Source: a virus
Virus record (IMG/VR): IMGVR_UViG_3300009285_005182
Coordinates: 1 to 57,387 of that record
Length of the DNA: 57,387 bases
Direction: 5' to 3' (one strand)
Part shown: piece after piece, positions 3,393-57,387 of the stretch
Layout of the letters: each line of letters begins with the position of its first letter
Numbering within the stretch: position 1 is the first letter of the stretch
Position numbers and translations under genes: made by a program
The notes under the pieces: generated by a model
Seen by the model: only the letters and a program-made list of their open reading frames with translations
What the model was told of the DNA's origin: nothing
The model's database searches: none

Positions 3393-4097
3393 CTATATCC
3401 TGCCTCTGTTTCCTTTATACTTGATTATAGCCTTATAAAGTTCTTCAGTTGAGTGAATGTCTTGAATACAGTGCTTGAGAATATAATCCAGAGCGGCTTG
3501 GTGGCCCGTCAACGCATCCTGCCACACTTCCATATTGAAGGGCAGTCCCTTGGATTTAATCCCAAATAACCTGCAGGCGTTTTGCATCGACCTCTTTGAC
3601 AGTTTGAACTTCCCACTGATAATATCGTAGAGATCTATCACCTTAATTTGCTTCCATTCTGGAAACCCCTTTACCCCCCACTTCGCACAACGAGTTCGGA
3701 GAAATGGTATGTCGTGACGCTGGTAGCGTCCTCCAGCATCCCGGCCATAGTACACAACCAAAATATCAAAATTCCATACATCCTTACAAAATTGTTCTAT
3801 AAGGTGTTTATCTTTAGTGCCGCCCCTCATAATTGGGGCTCTAACCTCAGCAGGCGTGATGCTACGGGCAATAATAGGACCATCCAGAGCTTTGAGACAA
3901 TAGCAAAGGACATGACCCCAATCAGCATCAAGACTACCACCACTCTCTATGTCCAGAAATCCAATTCGCTCTTCTACTCCACGAGCCTCCTCATAACAGG
4001 CAGGGTGTCCACCAGGCATCCCATTATGTCTATGGACACATCTAAAGTTCAGTCTGTCCAGTAGCTCAGTTTTCAGCATTAGGTTTACGTCTTTCAT
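3393..4097 (-). CDS. Predicted DEDD-type 3'-5' exonuclease (RNase H fold)
   Basis: 234 aa, ATG 4097 with SD AGGAAGG. The exonuclease acidic motifs are recognisable: GFLDIESGG (Exo I, D-x-E), GRYQRHDIPFLRTRC (Exo II, acidic residue before a PFL helix) and HCIQDIHSTEELY (Exo III, HxxxD). The whole resembles YprB/DnaQ-like single-domain nucleases rather than a polymerase proofreading domain, which the PolA at 13398 already has. A likely role is DNA processing in replication or recombination. One base separates it from the SPFH gene upstream. Confidence 0.7.
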   Translation of the reverse strand: MKDVNLMLKTELLDRLNFRCVHRHNGMPGGHPACYEEARGVEERIGFLDIESGGSLDADWGHVLCYCLKALDGPIIARSITPAEVRAPIMRGGTKDKHLIEQFCKDVWNFDILVVYYGRDAGGRYQRHDIPFLRTRCAKWGVKGFPEWKQIKVIDLYDIISGKFKLSKRSMQNACRLFGIKSKGLPFNMEVWQDALTGHQAALDYILKHCIQDIHSTEELYKAIIKYKGNRGRI

Positions 4098-4634
4098 TTA
4101 TATTATCCTTCCTGTTTTATTGTCAATGTTGTCAATGAACAGTTTAAGTACTCTGGAATACACGAACTGCAGGGGAATAACCTGCTGTATGTACAACCCT
4201 ATTCCAGTTACCTCATTCCTAATTTCGCTTGCCATCTCATTTAGGTTCCATTGTCCTGGATTCTCTCCTGCAATGATATGTCCCCCAATTACTTTCATAG
4301 AATGAGCGGCCAGTATCTCTTCAGCATCCTCACATTCATACTTGGCCTTATATGGATTCAGAATCCAATACCTTACCGCCCACGAGGATTCTGTACTCTT
4401 GCCCTGGACGACCGCCGCCAGCTCTACCAGCAGTACCTGCTGCTTAACTTCTACCACCGCCATCGTCTGAAAAAGCGGCCAATACATATACCACCCAAAC
4501 TTCTTCACCCGGTACCAACTGCGTATAAATGGCACATGTGTTATTCGCACCGCCGCTTCCCGTGGACTCAGCAATACAAACTGTGGCACAAACTGAAACA
4601 GCCAGTCGAATAATCTACTTAGCCAATCCAACAC
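4098..4634 (-). CDS. SPFH/Band-7 (stomatin-like) domain protein
   Basis: 178 aa, GTG start at 4634 overlapping the end of the deoxyribosyltransferase-like gene. A hydrophobic/aromatic N-terminus (LSRLFDWLFQFVPQFVLL) is followed by WYMYWPLFQTMAVVEVKQQVLLVELAAVVQGKSTESSWAVRYWILNPYKAKYE. This has the pattern of stomatin/flotillin domains (pressure 'WPLFQ', 'VxVKxQV', 'V+Y+I.DPYKA'). The C-terminal part (ASEIRNEVTGIGLYIQQV) fits the SPFH helix region. Likely membrane-associated; such proteins organise membranes and oligomerise. An SPFH protein inside a phage replication cluster is unusual. Confidence 0.6.
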   Translation of the reverse strand: MLDWLSRLFDWLFQFVPQFVLLSPREAAVRITHVPFIRSWYRVKKFGWYMYWPLFQTMAVVEVKQQVLLVELAAVVQGKSTESSWAVRYWILNPYKAKYECEDAEEILAAHSMKVIGGHIIAGENPGQWNLNEMASEIRNEVTGIGLYIQQVIPLQFVYSRVLKLFIDNIDNKTGRII

Positions 4635-5082
4635 GCTTGAATTCCTTCAACGCTCTCTCAAATTCCTTGAACGACGCGAACACCTTTGTCCCGTGCACCT
4701 GCAGCCACGGATGCTGACTGTGTCCGTTGGTACAAATTATGAACACGGGCTTGCCAAATACAATCCCACCATACACAATCTCCATTATTGTACCATAACT
4801 TACTGAACCGTCAATCACCGCCACTACCCCATCCGCCTTCCGAATCTCCTCCAGGTCTCTCCTCACCAATATCGCCTTCTCCACGTCCGTCATCGCATAC
4901 TTCTCTTTACACCCGGAATCAATGGCGTTAATATCTTCCCGGTCCAGGTCATAGAAGGGATTTACCAACTCAATTCCATACTTCCGCTCCACCTTCTCCT
5001 CCCACACCCTGGTTTTTTGTCTGGTTTCAAACGGATGGGCCAGGTAGAATTTAAGATTGGGTTTCTTTTTGTCTGTTGTCAT
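4615..5082 (-). CDS. Nucleoside 2-deoxyribosyltransferase-like protein
   Basis: 155 aa from ATG 5082 (perfect SD AAGGAG, 8-nt spacing; an upstream in-frame TTG is less likely). Rossmann-like start LKFYLAHPFETR, then VVAVIDGSVSYGTIMEIVYGGIVFGKPVFIICTN. That is the 'D(G)xSxGTxxEIxY' pattern of the deoxyribosyltransferase/DUF4406 superfamily, which cleaves or transfers N-glycosidic bonds of (deoxy)nucleotides. Probably nucleotide salvage or DNA-base metabolism. Overlaps the endonuclease VII gene by 32 bp, implying translational coupling. Confidence 0.7.
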   Translation of the reverse strand: MTTDKKKPNLKFYLAHPFETRQKTRVWEEKVERKYGIELVNPFYDLDREDINAIDSGCKEKYAMTDVEKAILVRRDLEEIRKADGVVAVIDGSVSYGTIMEIVYGGIVFGKPVFIICTNGHSQHPWLQVHGTKVFASFKEFERALKEFKRVGLAK

Positions 5083-5575
5083 CGTCAATCTCCTTAATTA
5101 GGTAGTCTGTAGCAGTTTTTAGAAATTTCGCATCATCATTTGCCATCCCCAGGATTCTGTTACACATGGAACACAGCAGACCCCTAATTCGACCCGTCTT
5201 GTGGTCGTGGTCCACACATAGACGTTTCCTCTTTCGGTCTTTTTTCCCACAAATAGCACAAACTCTCCCCTGGGAGTCCAGCATATTCTGGTAGCTCTCT
5301 TTAGACAGCCCATACTTAGTTCTCAAACCACGAATCCATACGTCTCTTAGTATTCTAGACTTATTTACCTTAAAATATTTCTTTTGGCGGGCGGAAATAA
5401 TTTTCTCATGTTCCTGATAGTATCTTCTAGCGTATTCCTTTCGGTCTCTTCCACGTGCCCTACATTTTTCACATTGTTTACACCGCCTGGAGACACTATT
5501 TCTCGTTCTGTCCGGGTAAAACTCTGCCAGGGGTCTCTCCTTTTTGCAGGTGGAACACTTCTTGTTGGTCTGCAA
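5051..5575 (-). CDS. Recombination endonuclease VII family protein
   Basis: 174 aa; TTG start at 5575 preceded by AAGGAG at good spacing. The N-terminal zinc motif (CSTCKKERPLAEFY...CKQCEKC) is followed by a basic linker and the endonuclease VII core: VCAICGKK...LCVDHDHKTGRIRGLLCSMCNRILGMANDD (Cys pair, DHDH, Cys pair). Phage endo VII resolves Holliday junctions and branched DNA before packaging; free-standing relatives can be mobile. Nested within the 3' end of the upstream gene (80-bp overlap). Confidence 0.9.
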   Translation of the reverse strand: MQTNKKCSTCKKERPLAEFYPDRTRNSVSRRCKQCEKCRARGRDRKEYARRYYQEHEKIISARQKKYFKVNKSRILRDVWIRGLRTKYGLSKESYQNMLDSQGRVCAICGKKDRKRKRLCVDHDHKTGRIRGLLCSMCNRILGMANDDAKFLKTATDYLIKEIDDDNRQKETQS

Positions 5576-5888
5576 AATATATCTCCTTAATCAGTGCCAA
5601 AGCAAGGATATGATAGTTAATGTTATCAATATATTTTTCCAAAAACCAAGCCCACGGGCGGACATTCCCATCTTGCAATTCGTCAAGCCCCTGGATGATA
5701 CTTGCTTTGTGCTTTAGCTGCATCCCGCGTAACGCTTCTATGGGGGTGATCCCGTCAATTCGCCCGGCCAGCTTGAAGTTGAACAGCTTGTCGGAATCAT
5801 AACTGTAATCACTCGATTTTATATCAAGAATATTGGTTATTTGATGCAAGATGTTTTTCAAAAATTCTGAGAACCTTACAATAGTCAT
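5496..5888 (-). CDS. DUF1599-like (nucleotide modification-associated) protein
   Basis: 130 aa from ATG 5888. The central motif DKLFNFKLAGRIDGITPIEALRGMQLKHKASIIQGLDEL followed by WFLEKYIDNINYHILALALIKE matches the shape of DUF1599/Nmad1 proteins, which are helical and carry a conserved 'D..DxxxY' pair. That family has been linked by context to phage nucleotide modification. Its 3' end overlaps the start of the endonuclease VII gene by 80 bp. Assignment rests on pattern, not a search. Confidence 0.55.
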   Translation of the reverse strand: MTIVRFSEFLKNILHQITNILDIKSSDYSYDSDKLFNFKLAGRIDGITPIEALRGMQLKHKASIIQGLDELQDGNVRPWAWFLEKYIDNINYHILALALIKEIYFADQQEVFHLQKGETPGRVLPGQNEK

Positions 5889-5898
5889 AGGATTTCCC

Positions 5899-7077
5899 TT
5901 ACTTGTCGAAGACTCCAATTTCACTTAGTGAACTATAAATATCAGGTGCCAGCCTGTACCAGTTATCCTCAGATTGATGAACGCTCTCAATCTGAAAAAT
6001 TCCACTATACACATACTGGTTAGCAATCCGAAACATTTCACGTTTGCCCGTCATACATACGCCTGCCATCGCCTCCAGTGTCTGAGTAGGCAGGTGCTTT
6101 CCCTGTCTAAACATCCACCTCAATAGCCTGGCTCTCACAGCACTAAGACTGTCCACAAATACCCGTTTCACCAGCTCCGTATCGGAATCATCCCAAGTCT
6201 TCCGCTGGTCCGCGATGCAGTGCCCATATCCAAGGTTCAGCAACTGTTGCACCAGCCTGGTAGCCAGCTCCGCATCCACTGCCGTCGTGTCGTCCGGCAC
6301 TGTCCGAGCCAGAGCCAGCACATCCGCCATCAGGACCACTTTCCTCTGAGCCCCTGCAGGAAGCACTGGAATCTCAGTCAGTTTCTTGGCGTAGTCGTTT
6401 ATCTTCTCAAGCTCCCCCTCAACGACCTTCTGCAGTTGGTACTTCCAGACCTTCTTGCTTTTCATAGACTCCACGATTGGGCCCAGGTTCTGCACACGCT
6501 GATGATGACTTCTCCGAATCCTGTTCATCCGAAAGCTCAGGAACCTCTCACCAAGCTGCTGGTGTTCATCGGCGTAACCATCAATCTTGTTGGTCACACA
6601 AGCAATCATCCCAAACCTTGACCTATACTTCTTCAGCCCACTTTTCCCAGATGCCTTACTGCAATGCTGGTCGAAAGCATCTCTCAGCTCCCCATATACC
6701 TTGGCGACTATTTTCTGGGGGCCATTTATCAAGGCGGTGAAGTCCTTCCAGATAAGCACCTTCCCATTGAGCATCTTAATCAACGAAGGGTCTGTGCCGT
6801 CGTCATCCTCGAAGCCACTCATAAAAGCGTTCTCGGTGGGCGTAGTGAGCAGGAGACAGAACTTCTCACACTCAGCCACTGTCTCCACCGTCAGGGTTTT
6901 TCCACTACCTGCAGGGGCTATGATATAAATCCAAACCGGCTCATCCAGTATAGGGCACAGTAGAGCGGTAATCGTGGCTATGAACACCCTCGGAGCCATC
7001 TCGTCGTCGTTCTCATACTTCAGTTTGCTTAGGTACTCGTTCACGATGGCCCTAAGAGGAGAATCAGGGATGCTCAT
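5899..7077 (-). CDS. P-loop ATPase, probable replication helicase or loader
   Basis: 392 aa. Walker A APAGSGKT at residues 54-61, Walker B-like GKVLIWKDFT around 106-115, and an Asn/sensor-like strand GMIACVTNKIDG. The C-terminal part (residues ~320-390, SLSAVRARLLRWMFRQGKHLPTQTLEAMAGVCMTGKREMFRIANQY) looks like a winged-helix DNA-binding domain. Family resemblance is to phage DUF3987/primase-helicase-type ATPases. No primase or DnaB-type helicase was otherwise recognised, so this is the best candidate for unwinding. The Walker A codons coincide with one copy of the dispersed GCCCCTGCAG motif. Confidence 0.7.
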   Translation of the reverse strand: MSIPDSPLRAIVNEYLSKLKYENDDEMAPRVFIATITALLCPILDEPVWIYIIAPAGSGKTLTVETVAECEKFCLLLTTPTENAFMSGFEDDDGTDPSLIKMLNGKVLIWKDFTALINGPQKIVAKVYGELRDAFDQHCSKASGKSGLKKYRSRFGMIACVTNKIDGYADEHQQLGERFLSFRMNRIRRSHHQRVQNLGPIVESMKSKKVWKYQLQKVVEGELEKINDYAKKLTEIPVLPAGAQRKVVLMADVLALARTVPDDTTAVDAELATRLVQQLLNLGYGHCIADQRKTWDDSDTELVKRVFVDSLSAVRARLLRWMFRQGKHLPTQTLEAMAGVCMTGKREMFRIANQYVYSGIFQIESVHQSEDNWYRLAPDIYSSLSEIGVFDK

Positions 7078-51188: not shown

Positions 51189-51941
51189 CTATTCTCCAAA
51201 CCTAACAGTACCCATACTCAGTGTCTCAACCATAAAATCTCTAACTACAGGATACCCATTCAACCAATTCACCAACTGACTGACCATCAGTCCCGCCGCA
51301 ATATATGCCCCATACATAGTCAGCCTGTCCGTACATGCCCCCTGAAAAGCCTGCTCATCACTATAAAAGCTCTCCAGGTAGTATCCTACATCCTCCCGCC
51401 TATTCATCTGAATAGTAACTATCCTAATCGCTCCGCTGGCCACTCTCGAATCAATCCAGAGCCCCTGCAGATGCCTGGTTTTCAGAATATCCACCCATAT
51501 CTCCTGCCTGGCTCTCATTGTGTCCACGCAGCAGAACACAACCTTCTTGGCCCACCTCTCCCTGGTTAAGCCTGTTCTCCACGGATTAAGAAGTCTCTGG
51601 AAAGTTGCAGACATACCACAAATCTTGGGGAAATCTCTGTAGATAACCTCAAACTTATCTTTACCCACATCACTGGGAGACCACCCCTGTGTCCCTATAT
51701 TCTTGGCCTCAATCCTGTCCGGGTCTGCTCCTACCACTCTGTCTGTGCCTATAGCATTCAGCAAAATGGCCACCTGTCTGCCCGTAGCTCCAAGCCCTGC
51801 AATTCCAATGTCCAGCTCCCTGAACTTGTCCAGCGGCAGTGTTGTCCTGAACCTCAAGTCAGCCTCACTCAAATCAACACCTAGTGTACTCTGCAGGGGC
51901 TTGTCCTCACTACTCGTTGTAATTTTAGTACTCGTACTCAT
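51189..51941 (-). CDS. E1-like (ThiF/MoeB family) adenylyltransferase of a Ub-like system
   Basis: 250 aa. Nucleotide-binding GIAGLGATGRQ (residues 46-56, the E1 GxGxxG loop), GADPDRIEAKNIGTQGW (71-87, where D-x-D...N is expected), VVFCCVDTMRARQ (134-146, D...R). A candidate catalytic cysteine is C203 in GACTDRLTMYGAYIAAGLMVSQ, the position before the last conserved helix. E1 enzymes adenylate the Ubl C-terminus and pass it as a thioester to E2. It is the last of the four conjugation genes and has its own structured leader (51961-52087). Confidence 0.85.
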   Translation of the reverse strand: MSTSTKITTSSEDKPLQSTLGVDLSEADLRFRTTLPLDKFRELDIGIAGLGATGRQVAILLNAIGTDRVVGADPDRIEAKNIGTQGWSPSDVGKDKFEVIYRDFPKICGMSATFQRLLNPWRTGLTRERWAKKVVFCCVDTMRARQEIWVDILKTRHLQGLWIDSRVASGAIRIVTIQMNRREDVGYYLESFYSDEQAFQGACTDRLTMYGAYIAAGLMVSQLVNWLNGYPVVRDFMVETLSMGTVRFGE

Positions 51942-51960
51942 TGTTTATTCTCCTTTCAAA

Positions 51961-52087
51961 TATCAATCCGGCGGGCAGGATTCCCCACCCTGCACCCTTT
52001 TACAAGATATGACGTAGGTGGCAGAACGCATAGTCATATCTATAAAACTTTCACCTTACCCAGCACTGCCACGCCGCCGCCGGACTG
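51961..52087 (-). ncRNA. Structured leader RNA A (pseudoknot), upstream of E1-like gene
   Basis: Minus-strand RNA closed by CAGUCCGGCGG : CCGCCGGAUUG (11 bp with one G-U that would be A-C on the other strand, favouring the minus strand). After the 5' closing strand comes CGGCGUGGCA. Inside, GUGGCAG pairs with CUGCCAC and AGAUAUGAC with GUCAUAUCU in interleaved order (plus positions 52066-52072/52018-52024 and 52033-52041/52005-52013): an H-type pseudoknot of 7+9 bp. Then GCAGG-CCUGC before the closing strand. Ends 20 nt before the ATG of the E1 gene. Confidence 0.7.
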
Positions 52088-52095
52088 ATTAGAAT

Positions 52096-52278
52096 TTAGT
52101 TCTTTTGTGCCTCTCGAAGACGCTTATTTTCATTTTCTAACTCCTCGATGAGATTACACATTGCACCCAGTACGTGTTCAATATCCCAAAGTATCAACTC
52201 ACCCTTTTTCATACGTCGAACAGTGGCAACACTTAATTTTATATGGGGAGGTTCTTTGGCTATAATGGGTTTGTTCAT
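52096..52278 (-). CDS. Small coiled-coil peptide in the Ub-like cluster
   Basis: 60 aa from ATG 52278 (SD AAGGA): MNKPIIAKEPPHIKLSVATV, then RRMKKGELILWDIEHVLGAMCNLIEELENENKRLREAQKN. C-terminal leucine-rich coiled coil. It sits between structured leaders B (upstream) and A (downstream). Could be a regulator or a substrate adaptor; no family recognised. Confidence 0.6.
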   Translation of the reverse strand: MNKPIIAKEPPHIKLSVATVRRMKKGELILWDIEHVLGAMCNLIEELENENKRLREAQKN

Positions 52279-52297
52279 TACTTTTCCTTCTTCTAAT

Positions 52298-52466
52298 ATC
52301 AGCCCGGCGGGCAGGATAGTTTGTTTCGGCTCACCTCTCGGTAGCCGCCACGATTGAGTGCTCTTTTCAACATATCTGCTGTTCAGAGACTCATTCAACA
52401 ACACGCACAGTCGGCTTTCTGTTCGTCCCTATCCTGCAACTACGTTGCCACGCCGCCGCCGGGCAG
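52298..52466 (-). ncRNA. Structured leader RNA B, upstream of 52278 gene
   Basis: Shares its ends with RNA A: 5' CCGGCGGCGGCGUGGCA and 3' AUCCUGCCCGCCGG (minus strand). P1 GCCCGGCGG:CCGCCGGGC (9 bp) and P2 GCAGGAUAG:CUAUCCUGC (9 bp) are contiguous on the 3' side; on the 5' side an 18-nt bulge with the conserved CGGCGUGGCA and a GCAAC/GUUGC hairpin separates them. The ~110-nt core differs from A and carries ACC-GAGA-GGU and UGAGU/ACUCA helices. Ends 19 nt before the ATG. Confidence 0.7.
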
Positions 52467-52491
52467 GTTAATCCTCTATTTTATCATACTC

Positions 52492-52707
52492 TCAATCATT
52501 TTCCTTGAGTTTCTTTAGTATGCGGCTAAGTCTTCTACCTACATTTGCCGGGTGTATCATCAACAACTGCGAAATCTCGATAGTAGAGTATCCATCCCTG
52601 TAGTACAAGTGAAAAAGCATCTTCTCGTGAACAGGTAATATGTTAGCCTTGTTACACAAGTACTCAACCTTACCACGGGTTTGGATTCTAATATCCACTG
52701 CAACCAT
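52492..52707 (-). CDS. Sigma-region-4-like HTH protein
   Basis: 71 aa from ATG 52707: NILPVHEKMLFHLYYRDGYSTIEISQLLMIHPANVGRRLSRILKKLKEND. This is the sigma-70 region 4 / LuxR-type HTH pattern (ILPxxEKxxFxLYYxxGxSxxEIxxLLxxxxxxVxRRLxRxxxKLK). Lies directly after the JAB gene and before RNA B; probably a transcription regulator of this cluster. Confidence 0.65.
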   Translation of the reverse strand: MVAVDIRIQTRGKVEYLCNKANILPVHEKMLFHLYYRDGYSTIEISQLLMIHPANVGRRLSRILKKLKEND

Positions 52708-52712
52708 CACTA

Positions 52713-53762
52713 CTACAAAAATTCTACAATACCTGCTATGTTTCTGGCCTGCTTTCTGTTCTTCTTTCTCCAACGGTTAAAATACGGCTTATGCTCGCTC
52801 TCCCTATTGCCCCCAAGATTTCCTATGGTATCTTCGTGGAGAATTTTAGACAGCCTCCCTTTACCCTCAAGCCGACAATGGGTAAGGTAGAGTTTCGTTG
52901 GTTTATGGGGTGCTTGGTTAAAAACAGCCGTGTCCCATGTCTCAATCTGTTCCAAGCTGTATCCCTCAAGGCGAGCTATGGTAAATGCCTCAAGCGGTAT
53001 CCACGTACCCGGTTGTGCCTCCCACTCTGCCTGGAATTTTTCGATGGGCAATTTGCCGTTATTGTAAAGCGCCAACACTAGTGAGCAAATATCAGAATTA
53101 TTGACCTCCTGGAGGAATCTGTTAGTCTCGCCCTCTCCCTTGTCCCTGTTCCAGTCATATCGGTTGTTCCAAGAATCTCTGGTTATCTGGCTTACAGTTA
53201 CCACCTCCTCCTGGATATTCTCCTTGTACTCAAGTGCCCAGCTCTCTTGGTTGGCAGTACGAACCATCGTCCCTACCTCATGGGATACATTGATTTCTAT
53301 ATCTATAACAGAACATCCGGGGAGGATAATCTGGCTTCTCAGACGAGCGATACTTGTTTCCATACTCTTGCCGAATATAACCATTACCCCCCAGTCCCCC
53401 TCTCCTATTTTCTTTTGAAATGTATTCTCATCCGTTACACTGGGGCCTATACCACTTGACGAAAATGGGTGGGAGTGAATCCACACCCTCATACATCTGG
53501 CTGGCTCTATTCCCTTTTCAGCCATCGACCCAACATAAAGAGCCAGTTTCTCATCATCCATCTTGGTCTCTGTACCACCTACCTCTTGGTGGGTGGTTCG
53601 GAAGTCCACTATACGTAGAGCGTTCTCAGGCTCAGTAACCCCGAACCCACTGATTTCATTCTTACCAGCCTGCTCCATAAACCACCTGATTTTCTCCCAG
53701 GCATACTCTGAGAACACCAGGCTAGGAATAGGACTACTTAATTCTACAGTTTTAGTTGTCAT
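52713..53762 (-). CDS. JAB/JAMM metallopeptidase (deubiquitinase-like) with C-terminal extension
   Basis: 349 aa. JAMM zinc site: E36 (NEISGFG), H96-x-H98-P99 and S108...D111 in WIHSHPFSSSGIGPSVTD; the P-to-S spacing is two residues longer than in Rpn11 or RadC. Residues ~150-349 are an extra helical domain ending in a basic segment (FNRWRKKNRKQARNI). Such enzymes trim Ubl precursors or cleave Ubl-target isopeptide bonds. It starts 2 bp after the E2-like gene, so the pair should be co-translated. Confidence 0.9.
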   Translation of the reverse strand: MTTKTVELSSPIPSLVFSEYAWEKIRWFMEQAGKNEISGFGVTEPENALRIVDFRTTHQEVGGTETKMDDEKLALYVGSMAEKGIEPARCMRVWIHSHPFSSSGIGPSVTDENTFQKKIGEGDWGVMVIFGKSMETSIARLRSQIILPGCSVIDIEINVSHEVGTMVRTANQESWALEYKENIQEEVVTVSQITRDSWNNRYDWNRDKGEGETNRFLQEVNNSDICSLVLALYNNGKLPIEKFQAEWEAQPGTWIPLEAFTIARLEGYSLEQIETWDTAVFNQAPHKPTKLYLTHCRLEGKGRLSKILHEDTIGNLGGNRESEHKPYFNRWRKKNRKQARNIAGIVEFL

Positions 53763-53764
53763 TT

Positions 53765-55360
53765 CTACTTTTTCTCCTTTCTTTTCTCTATTTCAACAGC
53801 ACGCTTCAGGGCATCCTCAACTTCCCCTGCTGGGGCAGGGCTATATCCACGCTCTATACACCCCCGGCACAACCCCTTATCGGGGACAAAGTGGCTTAGG
53901 CACGCATTGGCTCCACAAGCATGACATTTCAATATACACCGTCCACAGAAGTAGCTTGATACGGCGTCACTTTCTCCCCCAGAGCTGTGAGTGTGCATAC
54001 ACCTCACAGTGTGTTCGTCACAAACTGGCTCACCACACCAGCTGCAGGTTCTACCCTGAGAGTGGGCTTCACCACCTGAAGAAGGGGGAGATAGGAGTGG
54101 TGATGATTGGTGTAAAACCCTATTCAACGTAACACAAGTCTTACATACAGGAGCAGTAATGAGTCCCCGAACCGTACCCTCCGAAGCAAAAATACTACTA
54201 TTCATCCGTAGAGTGATTTTCCGGCCACATCTCAGTTTAGAGCATACTGTATTTCTTTTTTCGGAAAGTTTCATAGCCTCCTTCACCCGTCTCTGTCGTA
54301 TTTCAGAATTCACCTTATCTGGGCTCATTTCCTTAATCATCTTCTGGATTTCTTCTGAGGGCTGAAGGCTATGCTTTTTACACACAACTCCCTGACAAGT
54401 ACTACACAAAGAAAACTCTGGAGAGCCGGATTTAGAGAGCCATACACCACACACAGAACAATGTCCTCCTTCCTCGTCTGTGTAGTGAAACAGTTGTCGG
54501 TATTCCCCTCCACGGTGGAGTGTATGAAGTAGGCTCACCAACACAGAGTATAGGCTAATAACATCTCCGTGTTGCCTGGCTCTTTCGACCGCTGTGTAGC
54601 CCTCCCCCAAACAAAAACCCCCATCAAGGATATGAGGATGATATTGTCTCCTAAGAAACTGATACTGCATCCGGTCGCCAACTATTCCGTCAGGCTCCTG
54701 GCCCTCAAGGAGAGCAGTAGAAGGTAAATTACCAGACCCAACTATATCAAATGTAAGAAAAAATCCCAGCGTTGGTGCTAGTAAACACATCTTCATAGAA
54801 ATAAGTATCCATAGCCCACGAAACTCTACACTCAATCCTCTATCATCCAAATTGAATGGAGCCACCGGAAAATTAAACAACAGTTTCTTATCCCGACCCT
54901 TTCTAATAGACCATCCGGGGTAGAGAGAGGATAGAAAATTCTCTTTGCACTCAATGCTGGAAGGCAAAATTTCCTCATTCTTAGTCAAGGATTCTGCTGT
55001 CATCAACTCACCAGCTCTCTTCTCTAGGGTATCCAGATGTGTCTTTATACCTCTCCGAATGCGCTCATGATATAGGCTTATATTGATTTCTTCCCCTGCA
55101 GAAACAAGAGAATCCTGAAGTGTCTTGACTTCTATTTCCAGGGCATCCATAGCCTTCAGGAGCGCCTTTGGTGAGGGGTGCAGCATATCCTCTACGTGGT
55201 TATGCCACAAGGCTGCTCCGGTCTCTGGGGTTGTAGCCACTCCGGGCTTCTTGGTTTTTTTAGTCTCTTTACTTTTCTTTGTCCAGCCGTTCTGAGTTTT
55301 TTGTTTTTGTGTTGCCATCTCTTCTTGTCTCCTAAGAGGATAGGTTGTGGGGTGAGCCAT
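53765..55360 (-). CDS. E2-like Ub-conjugating enzyme fused to Cys-rich (RING/treble-clef-like) region
   Basis: 531 aa from ATG 55360, or 517 aa from ATG 55318, which has the better SD. A charged coiled N-terminus (15-125) precedes an E2/UBC-like domain (~140-290): beta strands KLLFNFPVAPFN / LSVEFRGLWILI / LGFFLTFDIVG, then HPHILDGGFCLG (H241-P-H...C250), matching the eukaryotic HPN...CL active-site loop, then the helix ISLYSVLVSLLHTLH. The C-terminus (300-505) has C-x2-C modules: HCSVCG..CSTC..VCKKH, VCSKLRC..VCKTC, CSWCGEPVCDEHTVRC, CGRCILKCHACGANACLSH..CRGC. That is a plausible built-in E3-like or substrate-binding part. Confidence 0.78.
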   Translation of the reverse strand: MAHPTTYPLRRQEEMATQKQKTQNGWTKKSKETKKTKKPGVATTPETGAALWHNHVEDMLHPSPKALLKAMDALEIEVKTLQDSLVSAGEEINISLYHERIRRGIKTHLDTLEKRAGELMTAESLTKNEEILPSSIECKENFLSSLYPGWSIRKGRDKKLLFNFPVAPFNLDDRGLSVEFRGLWILISMKMCLLAPTLGFFLTFDIVGSGNLPSTALLEGQEPDGIVGDRMQYQFLRRQYHPHILDGGFCLGEGYTAVERARQHGDVISLYSVLVSLLHTLHRGGEYRQLFHYTDEEGGHCSVCGVWLSKSGSPEFSLCSTCQGVVCKKHSLQPSEEIQKMIKEMSPDKVNSEIRQRRVKEAMKLSEKRNTVCSKLRCGRKITLRMNSSIFASEGTVRGLITAPVCKTCVTLNRVLHQSSPLLSPPSSGGEAHSQGRTCSWCGEPVCDEHTVRCMHTHSSGGESDAVSSYFCGRCILKCHACGANACLSHFVPDKGLCRGCIERGYSPAPAGEVEDALKRAVEIEKRKEKK

Positions 55361-55408
55361 TTACCCACCCCACTCCTATCTTCGCTGCCCTATCTGGACT
55401 GGCGGTTG

Positions 55409-55648
55409 TTAGTTTCCCTTCACCTTGACAGGAACGATAACCACCAAATCTCCGTCTTTGATGGTGGTTTTCTTGGGTTCACTAATCATCGCGCCATTAA
55501 GCATGATACGATGCTCCGCGGGGTCAATCTCAGCCCCAAGCTCGGCGTGAAGAATTTCAGACAGAGTCATATCCCGGGCGACATTAGCCTTCCTGACGCT
55601 GCCAGTACCTTTGTTACTTACGATTGTAATTGTCCCATTCATAGGCAT
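55409..55648 (-). CDS. Ubiquitin-like beta-grasp protein (Ubl)
   Basis: 79 aa. The beta-grasp order is clear: beta hairpin GTITIVSNKGTGSVRKANVA, helix MTLSEILHAELGAEIDP, strand EHRIMLNGAMISEPKKTTIKDGDLVVIVPVKVKGN, like ThiS/MoaD and small Ubls. The C-terminus is G78-N79 rather than GG, so a JAB cut after G78 (or use of a single Gly) would be needed before adenylation. First of the conjugation genes; 48 bp before the E2-like ORF. SD AAAGGAG. Confidence 0.85.
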   Translation of the reverse strand: MPMNGTITIVSNKGTGSVRKANVARDMTLSEILHAELGAEIDPAEHRIMLNGAMISEPKKTTIKDGDLVVIVPVKVKGN

Positions 55649-55725
55649 GTGGATTTCTCCTTTGTTAAATTAAGTTATGTTACATTATATTTCTAATCTA
55701 CTTTCTACCTATACCTAACTCACCT

Positions 55726-55986
55726 TTATTCTCTGATTGTCACGGTAAGCCCTCTGGCTCTGGCCATATCATATACCAGCGTTCTCCGTTCTCTATCCGC
55801 CCTGCTAAGCTCGGCGTTGGAGTAATCTGGAAAATCCAAGCCATCTACAACCCATCTTGCAATAGTATTCCCTGAAGAAATCAAAAGAATACCATCGGTG
55901 ATGAACCGGGCCTTACCTTTTGCCACTACACAAGCTTCTTTTCTGTCCAGAAACTTGGTGGCAACAATTACCTCGGCCTTAGTCAT
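55726..55986 (-). CDS. Small protein leading the Ub-like cluster
   Basis: 86 aa: MTKAEVIVATKFLDRKEACV, then VAKGKARFITDGILLISSGNTIARWVVDGLDFPDYSNAELSRADRERRTLVYDMARARGLTV, an alpha/beta pattern with a charged helix. First gene after the promoter at 56025-56053. No family recognised; its place suggests a cofactor or substrate of the system. Confidence 0.65.
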   Translation of the reverse strand: MTKAEVIVATKFLDRKEACVVAKGKARFITDGILLISSGNTIARWVVDGLDFPDYSNAELSRADRERRTLVYDMARARGLTVTIRE

Positions 55987-56563: not shown

Positions 56564-57387
56564 TTATTGTTTTGCTTTCCACTCCCATACTATCTTCGCG
56601 TCTGGCCCTGTGTGTAACCTCCACGTCTCACCATCAAAACTTGGCAGGAGATTCCTGTTCCACAAGTCAACTGCTGCCTGAAACGGATATTTCCCCTTCT
56701 TGTGTTTACTACCCTTCCACTGTGGCAGTGTGAAGAATGAGCCAACATAGGCCTTCACCAAGTCCCTCACCGAGTCCCTCACCGAGTTCCACACCGAGTT
56801 CCTCACCGAGTTCCACACCGAGTTCCCCACCGAGTCCCACACCGAGCTCCCCACCGGGCTCCTCACCGAGTTCCCCACCGAGTCCGCCACCGAGTTCCCC
56901 ACCGAGTCCGCCACCGAGTCCCACACCGAGTCCCACACCGAGTCCCACACCGAGTCCCCCACCGAGGCCCACACCGAGTCCCGCACCGAGTCCCACACCG
57001 AGTCCCACATCAAGTCCCACACCGAGGAGCCCACCGAGGCCCGCACCGAGGCCCACTCTTTTAGAAGGGCAATATCGCTTTTGGTTGGAGCGCCAGCATC
57101 CAGCAGCAGCGGGTTTATAGGATGACACACCCCAGAGTATTGCCACCCGAATAGAGTATCCAACGACGCTTGGGGAATTTCTTCCAGCACAGTGGCCTCG
57201 ACCCAACCCCATTTGGTTTCGTCCCCGCAAACTGGATCGAACTCTAGGCGAAAACATGCACATGGGATTTTAGTGCCTATTAAACAGTCGTTGGGATTCG
57301 TGCTGGCATGTCCAACCCCTTTAGAGCACAGGCCCAAACCAGGGTTAGCGTTCGGGACTACCACCTTATGCGGGTATGTGTCACCTC
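56564..57387 (-). CDS. xxSV-repeat protein, 5' end beyond window
   Basis: At least 274 codons, open to the right edge (GDTYPHKVVVPNANPGLG continues upstream of the first in-window start at 57364). N-terminal domain: LCSKGVGHASTNPNDCLIGTKIPCACFRLEFD...WGWVEATVLEEIPQASLDTLFGW. Then ~26 four-residue repeats (WDSV, RDSV, GNSV, ADSV) and a tail AYVGSFFTLPQWKGSKHKKGKYPFQAAVDLWNRNLLPSFDGETWRLHTG. The tail is the usual C-terminus for both this N-terminal type and the MCLFL type at 2877. Repeats may form a beta-helical or pentapeptide-like rod. GC about 52%. Confidence 0.65.
   Translation of the reverse strand, partial: GDTYPHKVVVPNANPGLGLCSKGVGHASTNPNDCLIGTKIPCACFRLEFDPVCGDETKWGWVEATVLEEIPQASLDTLFGWQYSGVCHPINPLLLDAGAPTKSDIALLKEWASVRASVGSSVWDLMWDSVWDSVRDSVWASVGDSVWDSVWDSVWDSVADSVGNSVADSVGNSVRSPVGSSVWDSVGNSVWNSVRNSVWNSVRDSVRDLVKAYVGSFFTLPQWKGSKHKKGKYPFQAAVDLWNRNLLPSFDGETWRLHTGPDAKIVWEWKAKQ
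56755..57055 (-). repeat. 12-nt (xxSV) tandem repeat, right copy
   Basis: About 25 degenerate 12-nt units with consensus CACCGAGTCCCA on the plus strand. 56813-56856 is identical to 2392-2435. Protein repeat of period four. Such hubs are prone to recombination and to assembly error. Confidence 0.85.

Follow-up and report, generated by a model that had tools for sequence, protein, structure and literature searches.

A phage genome of 57,387 bases (IMG/VR virus record IMGVR_UViG_3300009285_005182, positions 1 to 57,387; this whole stretch of DNA was analysed and is called the window below) carries on its minus strand, from 55648 down to 51189, a cassette that encodes a ubiquitin-like protein (Ubl), an E2-like enzyme, a JAB/JAMM metallopeptidase and an E1/ThiF-type adenylating enzyme, in this order. 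The features expected of a conjugation cascade are found in the four predicted proteins, namely a beta-grasp Ubl with a C-terminal Gly, an E1 with a candidate catalytic Cys, a putative E2 of the UBC type and a JAMM peptidase. The cassette is probably a self-contained, phage-specific system for Ubl conjugation and deconjugation, which would act in the replication phase. A first-pass annotation, made from the sequence of the window, had already described the set as complete, on one strand and carried by the phage itself, and this description held. A search of viral genomes for the same gene order revealed that other viruses share the feature: 68 distinct viral loci, the window included, encode Ubl, E2, JAB and E1 in order and on one strand.

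The Ubl matches the Pfam family ThiS with an E value of 9.6e-5, above the cut-off, and the profile of its family matches SAMP2 at 3.6e-6. An AlphaFold2 model reached a predicted local distance difference test score (pLDDT) of 75 and led Foldseek to Caldiarchaeum ubiquitin and SUMO (E about 9e-5, probability 1.0), which bears out the beta-grasp fold that had been proposed for this protein. A ribosome site (GGAG) lies 9 nucleotides ahead of its ATG. Gly78 is, together with Met1, the sole residue kept throughout the Ubl alignment (A11). Two kinds of cassette can be distinguished among the loci. In the HPH kind, to which the window belongs, a standalone Ubl ends in [VIM][KDE]G and a tail of 0 to about 12 residues, and the E2 is Cys-rich at its C-terminus; the crAss/Fpv kind has HSH instead and a long Ubl extension after K-x-K-S-G. 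An ending in [VIM][KDE]G with a short tail recurs among the relatives, and nearly all Ubls of the HPH kind end in Lys/Glu/Asp-Gly plus a few residues, with one exception (L138). Locus L099 has a single gene for three Ubl units, in which KVEGA stands after the second unit, at the Ubl2-Ubl3 junction, and again after the third. This is the pattern expected for a precursor processed by a JAMM peptidase, and among the arguments from sequence it speaks most strongly for maturation of the tag by the JAB. Tandem-Ubl genes with KVEGA junctions, reminiscent of a polyubiquitin-like precursor of phages, are located at L099:2417-3082 and L114:303-968.

The E1 has a single match to Pfam ThiF (residues 37-234, E = 1.6e-11, 44.3 bits against a cut-off of 28.1), and the motifs GLGATG and DPD as well as Cys203, all of which the first-pass annotation had pointed out, are present. 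A profile of phage and plasmid E1s matches MccB/UBA5 at 8e-22 to 1e-21. Cys203 and the glycines of the E1 motif are found in 68 of 68 loci, and the Cys is also present in the E1s of plasmid PRTRC systems. The JAB alone has a weak match to Prok-JAB (E = 0.013), and the profile of its family matches RPN11 at 2.8e-7; E36, H96, H98, S108 and D111 are conserved, which agrees with the predicted JAMM residues, and the JAMM residues occur in 66-67 of the 68 loci. The loci were gathered by alignment-driven scans of viral contigs and a hidden Markov model pass over all loci; some came from a search whose pattern contained Cys203 and others from one whose pattern contained the HxH of the JAB, while one further set is independent of both.

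The E2 is 531 amino acids long in the window and 426 amino acids long in a sister phage (see below); its true start probably lies 14 codons later, at 55318 (residue 15), since Met15 aligns with the start of the sister protein. H241, C250 and G252 are conserved in the relatives, although the E2 members of sets A19 and A21 were chosen by an HP..C.G pattern and the invariance of residues there is partly by construction; the members of A2, A6 and A9 were chosen by position or homology. A Pfam search with the single E2 gave no match, and none was obtained for 31 members either. A profile of 18 trimmed phage E2 cores, by contrast, matches two UBC entries over the whole length of the profile (E = 0.0044-0.0049). 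In the alignment of this core to eukaryotic UBC enzymes, HPHV is placed on HPNV and the Cys on the catalytic Cys, and the next matches are mostly other E2s. These profiles argue for a UBC fold, which is the weakest link of the four assignments. The C-terminal tail is Cys-rich and appears zinc-binding-like, in keeping with the zinc fingers that had been noticed as a fusion to the E2. The profile of this region resembles RING/treble-clef fingers (RNF4, E = 2.6e-5); an E3-like role is only suggested, because Cys-rich profiles draw such matches by composition. Additional E2-like open reading frames are found beside the main cassette in L011:6862-7404 (HPHI...VCWG) and L015:2580-3158 (HPNI...VCLYG), and in L013:57-5366 JAB and E1 are preceded by three consecutive E2-like proteins (HPHLNVDNKPCWG, HPHLDLEGHPCWG and HPHVSREGDPCWG), with no Ubl detected there.

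The contig is that of a phage, and the cassette belongs to it. Genes for a large terminase (PHROG, E = 4.8e-53) and an A-type DNA polymerase (E = 3.1e-56) are located on the minus strand of the window, together with genes for an exonuclease, a Sak4-like annealing protein and a protein with a weak portal match; a recombinase is, besides terminase and DNA polymerase, among the genes that mark the contig as phage. Using the terminase, a sister phage was found on a 59.5-kb contig from a different metagenome. Its terminase is 61% and its capsid protein about 60% identical to those of the window, and since it carries the same cassette, the cassette is native to the phage. In the sister phage, the cassette is placed at the other end of the contig relative to the terminase, and the genes for Ubl, E2, JAB and E1 are contiguous. 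Its E1 is 47% identical to the window E1 over the alignment, its JAB 34% and its E2, which has HPHISDEGSICWG and then a Cys-rich tail, 26%; its Ubl consists of 80 amino acids, is 42% identical, and both Ubls end in VKGN. A search with the major capsid protein revealed seven phages with the cassette, the sister and six more, with a capsid identity of 39-72% in six and 28% in the seventh. A scan with the capsid alignment found eleven relatives on contigs of at least 42 kb, in six of which the E1 is present and in five absent; counting the window, the cassette occurs in 7 of 12 capsid-sharing phages on such contigs, which may be incomplete. The GC content across the cluster is 0.44-0.53 and phage-like. 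The sister cassette and the seven capsid relatives rule out that the cassette is host DNA in a chimeric contig, which had been named as a concern.

Among viral contigs, relatives were reached by alignments only, and E2 and E1 as single queries retrieved nothing there. With E2, JAB and Ubl as tblastn queries, no relative turned up in phage records. A tblastn search with the E1 against annotated phages yielded 66 records, all from Bacteroides crAss-like, Flavobacterium or uncultured gut phages and with less than 30% identity. Their neighbourhoods encode, in this order, a protein whose N-terminal part is a Ubl, one with the motif HSH..C.G, then the JAB and the E1, and the cultured phages crAss001, DAC15 and Fpv (Flavobacterium) carry all four genes in the same order. 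Current annotations of these genes are 'thiamine biosynthesis protein' (E1), 'metalloprotease' (JAB, crAss001) and 'hypothetical'. A scan of a genome collection gave one match, to an archaeon of the Methanomassiliicoccaceae; it is an ordinary ThiF encoded in a cluster of thiamine genes and was judged irrelevant. In an unrooted E1 tree of 75 rows, from which the E1s of Bil and CBASS were left out, the PRTRC, HPH and HSH groups are split by branches with supports of 100/100, 100/92 and 99/96, and the window E1 groups with those of the sister phages L097 and L129. The phage E1s fall into two clades, which are set apart from the plasmid PRTRC E1s with full support. The ratio of nonsynonymous to synonymous substitutions (dN/dS) stays under 1 in each pair for which it could be calculated, whichever of the four genes is compared, which demonstrates purifying selection on the cassette genes in the relatives. 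For the majority of close pairs, conservation is highest in E1 and lowest in E2 or Ubl.

Two further observations concern the surroundings of E1 genes in viruses. The gene immediately behind E1 in crAss-like and Flavobacterium phages (L003:6732-7544, L002:6747-7451, L005:6741-7490 and L004:6621-7709; gp75 in crAss001) encodes a conserved hypothetical protein and overlaps the E1 stop in the crAss-like ones; this protein is a possible fifth component or substrate. A group of other viral loci (L040-L062, L064-L068, L070-L078, L081-L083 and L085-L090) encodes a short E1 of about 186-200 amino acids with no E2 detected, and in most of them a JAB lies about 0-2 kb downstream. This group may represent a separate system, either of the Ubl type or for sulphur transfer.

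Ahead of the cassette in the sister phage lie genes for an exonuclease, a deoxyribosyltransferase-like protein and a helicase-like protein; the last two names were assigned by eye. Homologues of these genes in the window are located at 3393-7077, and their position at the opposite end of a linear contig would agree with a single block in a permuted genome. In crAss-like phages, the cassette is found among genes for a primase, a uracil-DNA glycosylase, a resolvase and an exonuclease, and its neighbours in other phages of the HPH kind encode SbcC, a helicase, a DNA polymerase exonuclease subunit, a primase, a Rad52-like recombinase and a single-stranded DNA-binding protein. Genes for a Sak4-like annealing protein and for DNA polymerase are likewise among the neighbours of the cassette.

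The coordinates of the cassette and the adjoining features are listed in the table. The four cassette genes are contiguous in the sister phage, and the helix-turn-helix (HTH) and coiled-coil genes, which the first-pass annotation had correctly placed before E1, therefore look like a private insertion of the window phage. In the four closest relatives that were checked, JAB and E1 are adjacent or overlapping, and the HTH gene is absent from this position. The pair of 17-bp repeats, of which 0.12 copies would be expected in the window and no others are present, flanks the small coiled-coil gene and may mark an insertion. The coiled-coil-like open reading frame had no family match in profile searches. 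Two structured leaders had been proposed in this region; the leader of E1 folds better than chance, while the other does not (z = -1.0). An Rfam search of the window, E1 leader included, found nothing. The 86-residue protein encoded just upstream of the Ubl is 31% identical (pairwise E = 1e-6) to that of the sister phage at L094:5586-5825. A low-complexity open reading frame with GYG/SHS repeats lies near the cassette in the sister phage L129 (L129:8248-9080) and may be compared with one of VWDSV repeats at 56564-57364 of the window. A further observation concerns positions 1-2450 and 56756-57056 of the window: the left end (to about 2,000) has a GC content of 65-73%, compared to 42-58% elsewhere, and joins the phage near a 12-bp tandem repeat, CACCGAGTCCCA, which is also found near the right end. 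This left end is probably a repeat-mediated misjoin and is distant from the cassette.

Table. Position of the cassette genes and of adjoining features in the window
Feature	Coordinates	Strand	Remarks
86-aa protein just upstream of Ubl	55726..55986	minus	homologue in sister phage also upstream of Ubl
Ubl, 79-aa, predicted beta-grasp	55409..55648	minus	ThiS match, profile, model; conserved Gly78, then one residue (KVKG-N)
E2, putative UBC domain (HPHI..C250LG) and C-terminal Cys/His-rich module	53765..55360	minus	core profile; likely start 55318
JAB/JAMM metallopeptidase (E36, H96-S-H98, S108, D111)	52713..53762	minus	starts 2 nt past E2 stop
HTH protein, sigma-70 region 4-like	52492..52773	minus	Sigma70_r4_2, E = 1.3e-7; start uncertain, overlaps JAB end
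17-bp direct repeat, CCGGCGGCGGCGTGGCA	52067..52083 and 52446..52462	minus	exact copies; flank coiled-coil gene
Small coiled-coil-like open reading frame	52096..52404	minus	between the two repeat copies
Structured leader of E1 gene	51942..52091	minus	RNA folding z = -3.3; 0/200 shuffles as good
E1/ThiF-type adenylating enzyme, candidate catalytic Cys203	51189..51941	minus	ThiF match; 250 aa

Among known systems, the first-pass annotation had likened the cassette to the anti-phage Bil operon of bacteria. The likeness holds for the gene order, since both systems consist of four separate polypeptides in the order Ubl-E2-JAB-E1, with the two small genes before E1 found in the window alone. Membership was rejected on the number of Ubl domains, the E2 motif and the E1 architecture, with Bil taken from its published description (PMC11354881). 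BilA consists of two consecutive Ubl domains, whereas the window Ubl has a single one; BilB has the CEHH motif (C, +6 E, +8 H, +13 H), whereas T, V and Q stand at +6, +8 and +13 after C250; and BilD combines inactive and active adenylation domains with a Cys domain of about 80 amino acids, whereas the window E1 has one domain. In addition, the cassette is encoded by phages. The nearest named relatives are the PRTRC plasmid systems (PRTRC-C Ubl, PRTRC-B/Prok-E2_D, PRTRC-A JAB and PRTRC ThiF; type 6d, Iyer et al. 2006). Both are carried by mobile elements as separate genes with the core order Ubl ... E2-JAB-E1, both conserve the E1 Cys, their Ubls end near Lys-Gly, and within NCBIfam the window E1 scores best against PRTRC_ThiF (7.5e-10). 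However, this match scores 38.6 bits against a cut-off of 144.75, the window E2 has no Prok-E2_D or PRTRC_B match in Pfam and NCBIfam, the genes for PRTRC-E, PRTRC-F and ParB do not accompany the phage cassette, and the E1s of the two are separated with 100/100 in the tree. Membership was thus rejected on cut-offs, missing partners and the tree. Using hhalign, PRTRC-C and the phage Ubl gave no signal, and PRTRC-B aligned with the phage E2 at the same motif (P = 0.0006-0.005, active site only). Type 6d E2s were reported to lack the His upstream of the Cys (PMC1779556), while the phage E2s keep it (HPH/HSH). The E1 domain is also distantly similar to that of the Cap2-type E1-E2 fusions of the cyclic oligonucleotide-based anti-phage signalling system (CBASS) and of 6A-MBL systems; in these, the E2 is fused to the E1 and a nucleotidyltransferase is conjugated, whereas the window genes are separate, and no CD-NTase, a feature of type II CBASS (Cap2/Cap3), was found among the window open reading frames scanned. 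African swine fever virus likewise encodes an E2, UBCv1 (I215L), but this enzyme is reported to use ubiquitin and E1 of the host (see PMC5823848, PMC7771050), whereas the window phage encodes the tag, both enzymes and the remover itself. The open literature searched yielded no description of a whole cascade carried by a phage, with preprints and most subscription papers outside its scope, and the crAss001 paper does not mention these genes under the terms searched. The phage cassette is, provisionally, a new and phage-specific variant of the prokaryotic ubiquitin-like systems.

Beyond the four proteins, their order and their conserved catalytic residues, we infer chemistry, timing and targets as follows. 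The JAMM peptidase would trim the Ubl, thereby exposing Gly78 (...KVKG). The E1 would adenylate Gly78 and then take the Ubl onto Cys203, from which the E2 would accept it on Cys250 and attach it to target proteins, possibly with the help of its Cys-rich tail as a substrate-binding or E3-like part; the JAMM enzyme could take the Ubl off the targets again. The likeliest targets would be replication-phase proteins of phage or host, modified for host takeover or counter-defence, because the cassette is located inside the replication/recombination block in the window, in crAss-like and in several other phages. That the cassette works as a cascade is likely, and replication-phase proteins are the favoured guess for its targets. 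A more detailed version is offered tentatively: a phage-specific branch distinct from Bil, PRTRC and CBASS, whose E2 has its own RING-like/treble-clef E3 module, which occurs in unrelated phages including gut crAss-like ones, and which tags replication-phase proteins of phage or host. Several points weigh against a self-contained conjugation system. Neither a proteasome partner nor a separate E3 was identified. The E2 profile is significant only after core trimming (E = 0.19 for the same UBC protein when untrimmed), and the AlphaFold2 model of the full E2, made from a shallow alignment, reached a pLDDT of 40 and was not used; the UBC fold predicted around C250 is thus backed by the core profile and the aligned active site, not by a model. 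A few of the 'full' loci may be mis-parsed, as the thresholds for Ubl and E2 were loose. Finally, the replication/recombination setting, which recurs in several unrelated phages, is descriptive, and adjacency is not function.

The same biochemistry could serve as a weapon against competing phages: structural proteins of phages that infect the same cell would be tagged, in the way that Bil works in its bacterial host. Besides the shared gene order, the patchy distribution in one phage family (7 of 12) would fit an accessory weapon, and the E2 is among the fastest-diverging of the four proteins, as would suit a part that faces the targets, while E1 diverges most slowly in the majority of close pairs. 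This is nevertheless unlikely: in the window family and in crAss-like phages, the cassette is found with replication genes and not with late or superinfection-exclusion genes, and it is retained across the deep crAss/Fpv clade. That the system modifies proteins of the phage's own virions at a late stage of infection, to help assembly or to stabilise them, is less probable still. The tail-assembly clusters of lambda and T1 offer a parallel, as their Ubl (TAPI) and JAB (TAPK) are also phage-encoded (Iyer et al. 2006, PMC1779556); however, E1 and E2, which are present in the cassette, are absent from them. The lambda and T1 genes also stand in a tail-gene context and include a JAB-NlpC/P60 fusion, whereas the window JAB has no NlpC match, early genes flank the cassette, and it is located outside the structural block with no adjoining NlpC/P60 or tail gene.

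The least probable of the alternatives is a sulphur-carrier pathway, in which the E1 activates the C-terminus of the Ubl, sulphur is passed to a small molecule or tRNA of phage or host, and the JAB merely trims the carrier. It would agree with the ThiS match of the Ubl, with an E1 that is a 250-residue ThiF-like enzyme with one conserved Cys, and with the many other viral loci that have a short E1 and a JAB but no detected E2. The E1 of these E2-less loci is, however, different and shorter, and their spacing differs; a UBC-like E2 is encoded between Ubl and JAB in 68 of 68 full loci, and no rhodanese, desulfurase or cofactor gene is adjacent to the cassette.

Ubiquitin-like cascades of bacteria are known as anti-phage defences, and a cascade that is owned by phages, in a clade of its own, reverses this picture. 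The presence of the same kit in the same order in dozens of phages, including gut crAss-like phages, suggests an unrecognised route by which phages label proteins of infected cells, and offers a function for the crAss-like genes that are currently labelled 'thiamine biosynthesis protein', 'metalloprotease' or 'hypothetical'. It raises the question of what phages tag, which is directly testable because crAss001, DAC15 and Flavobacterium phages are in culture.

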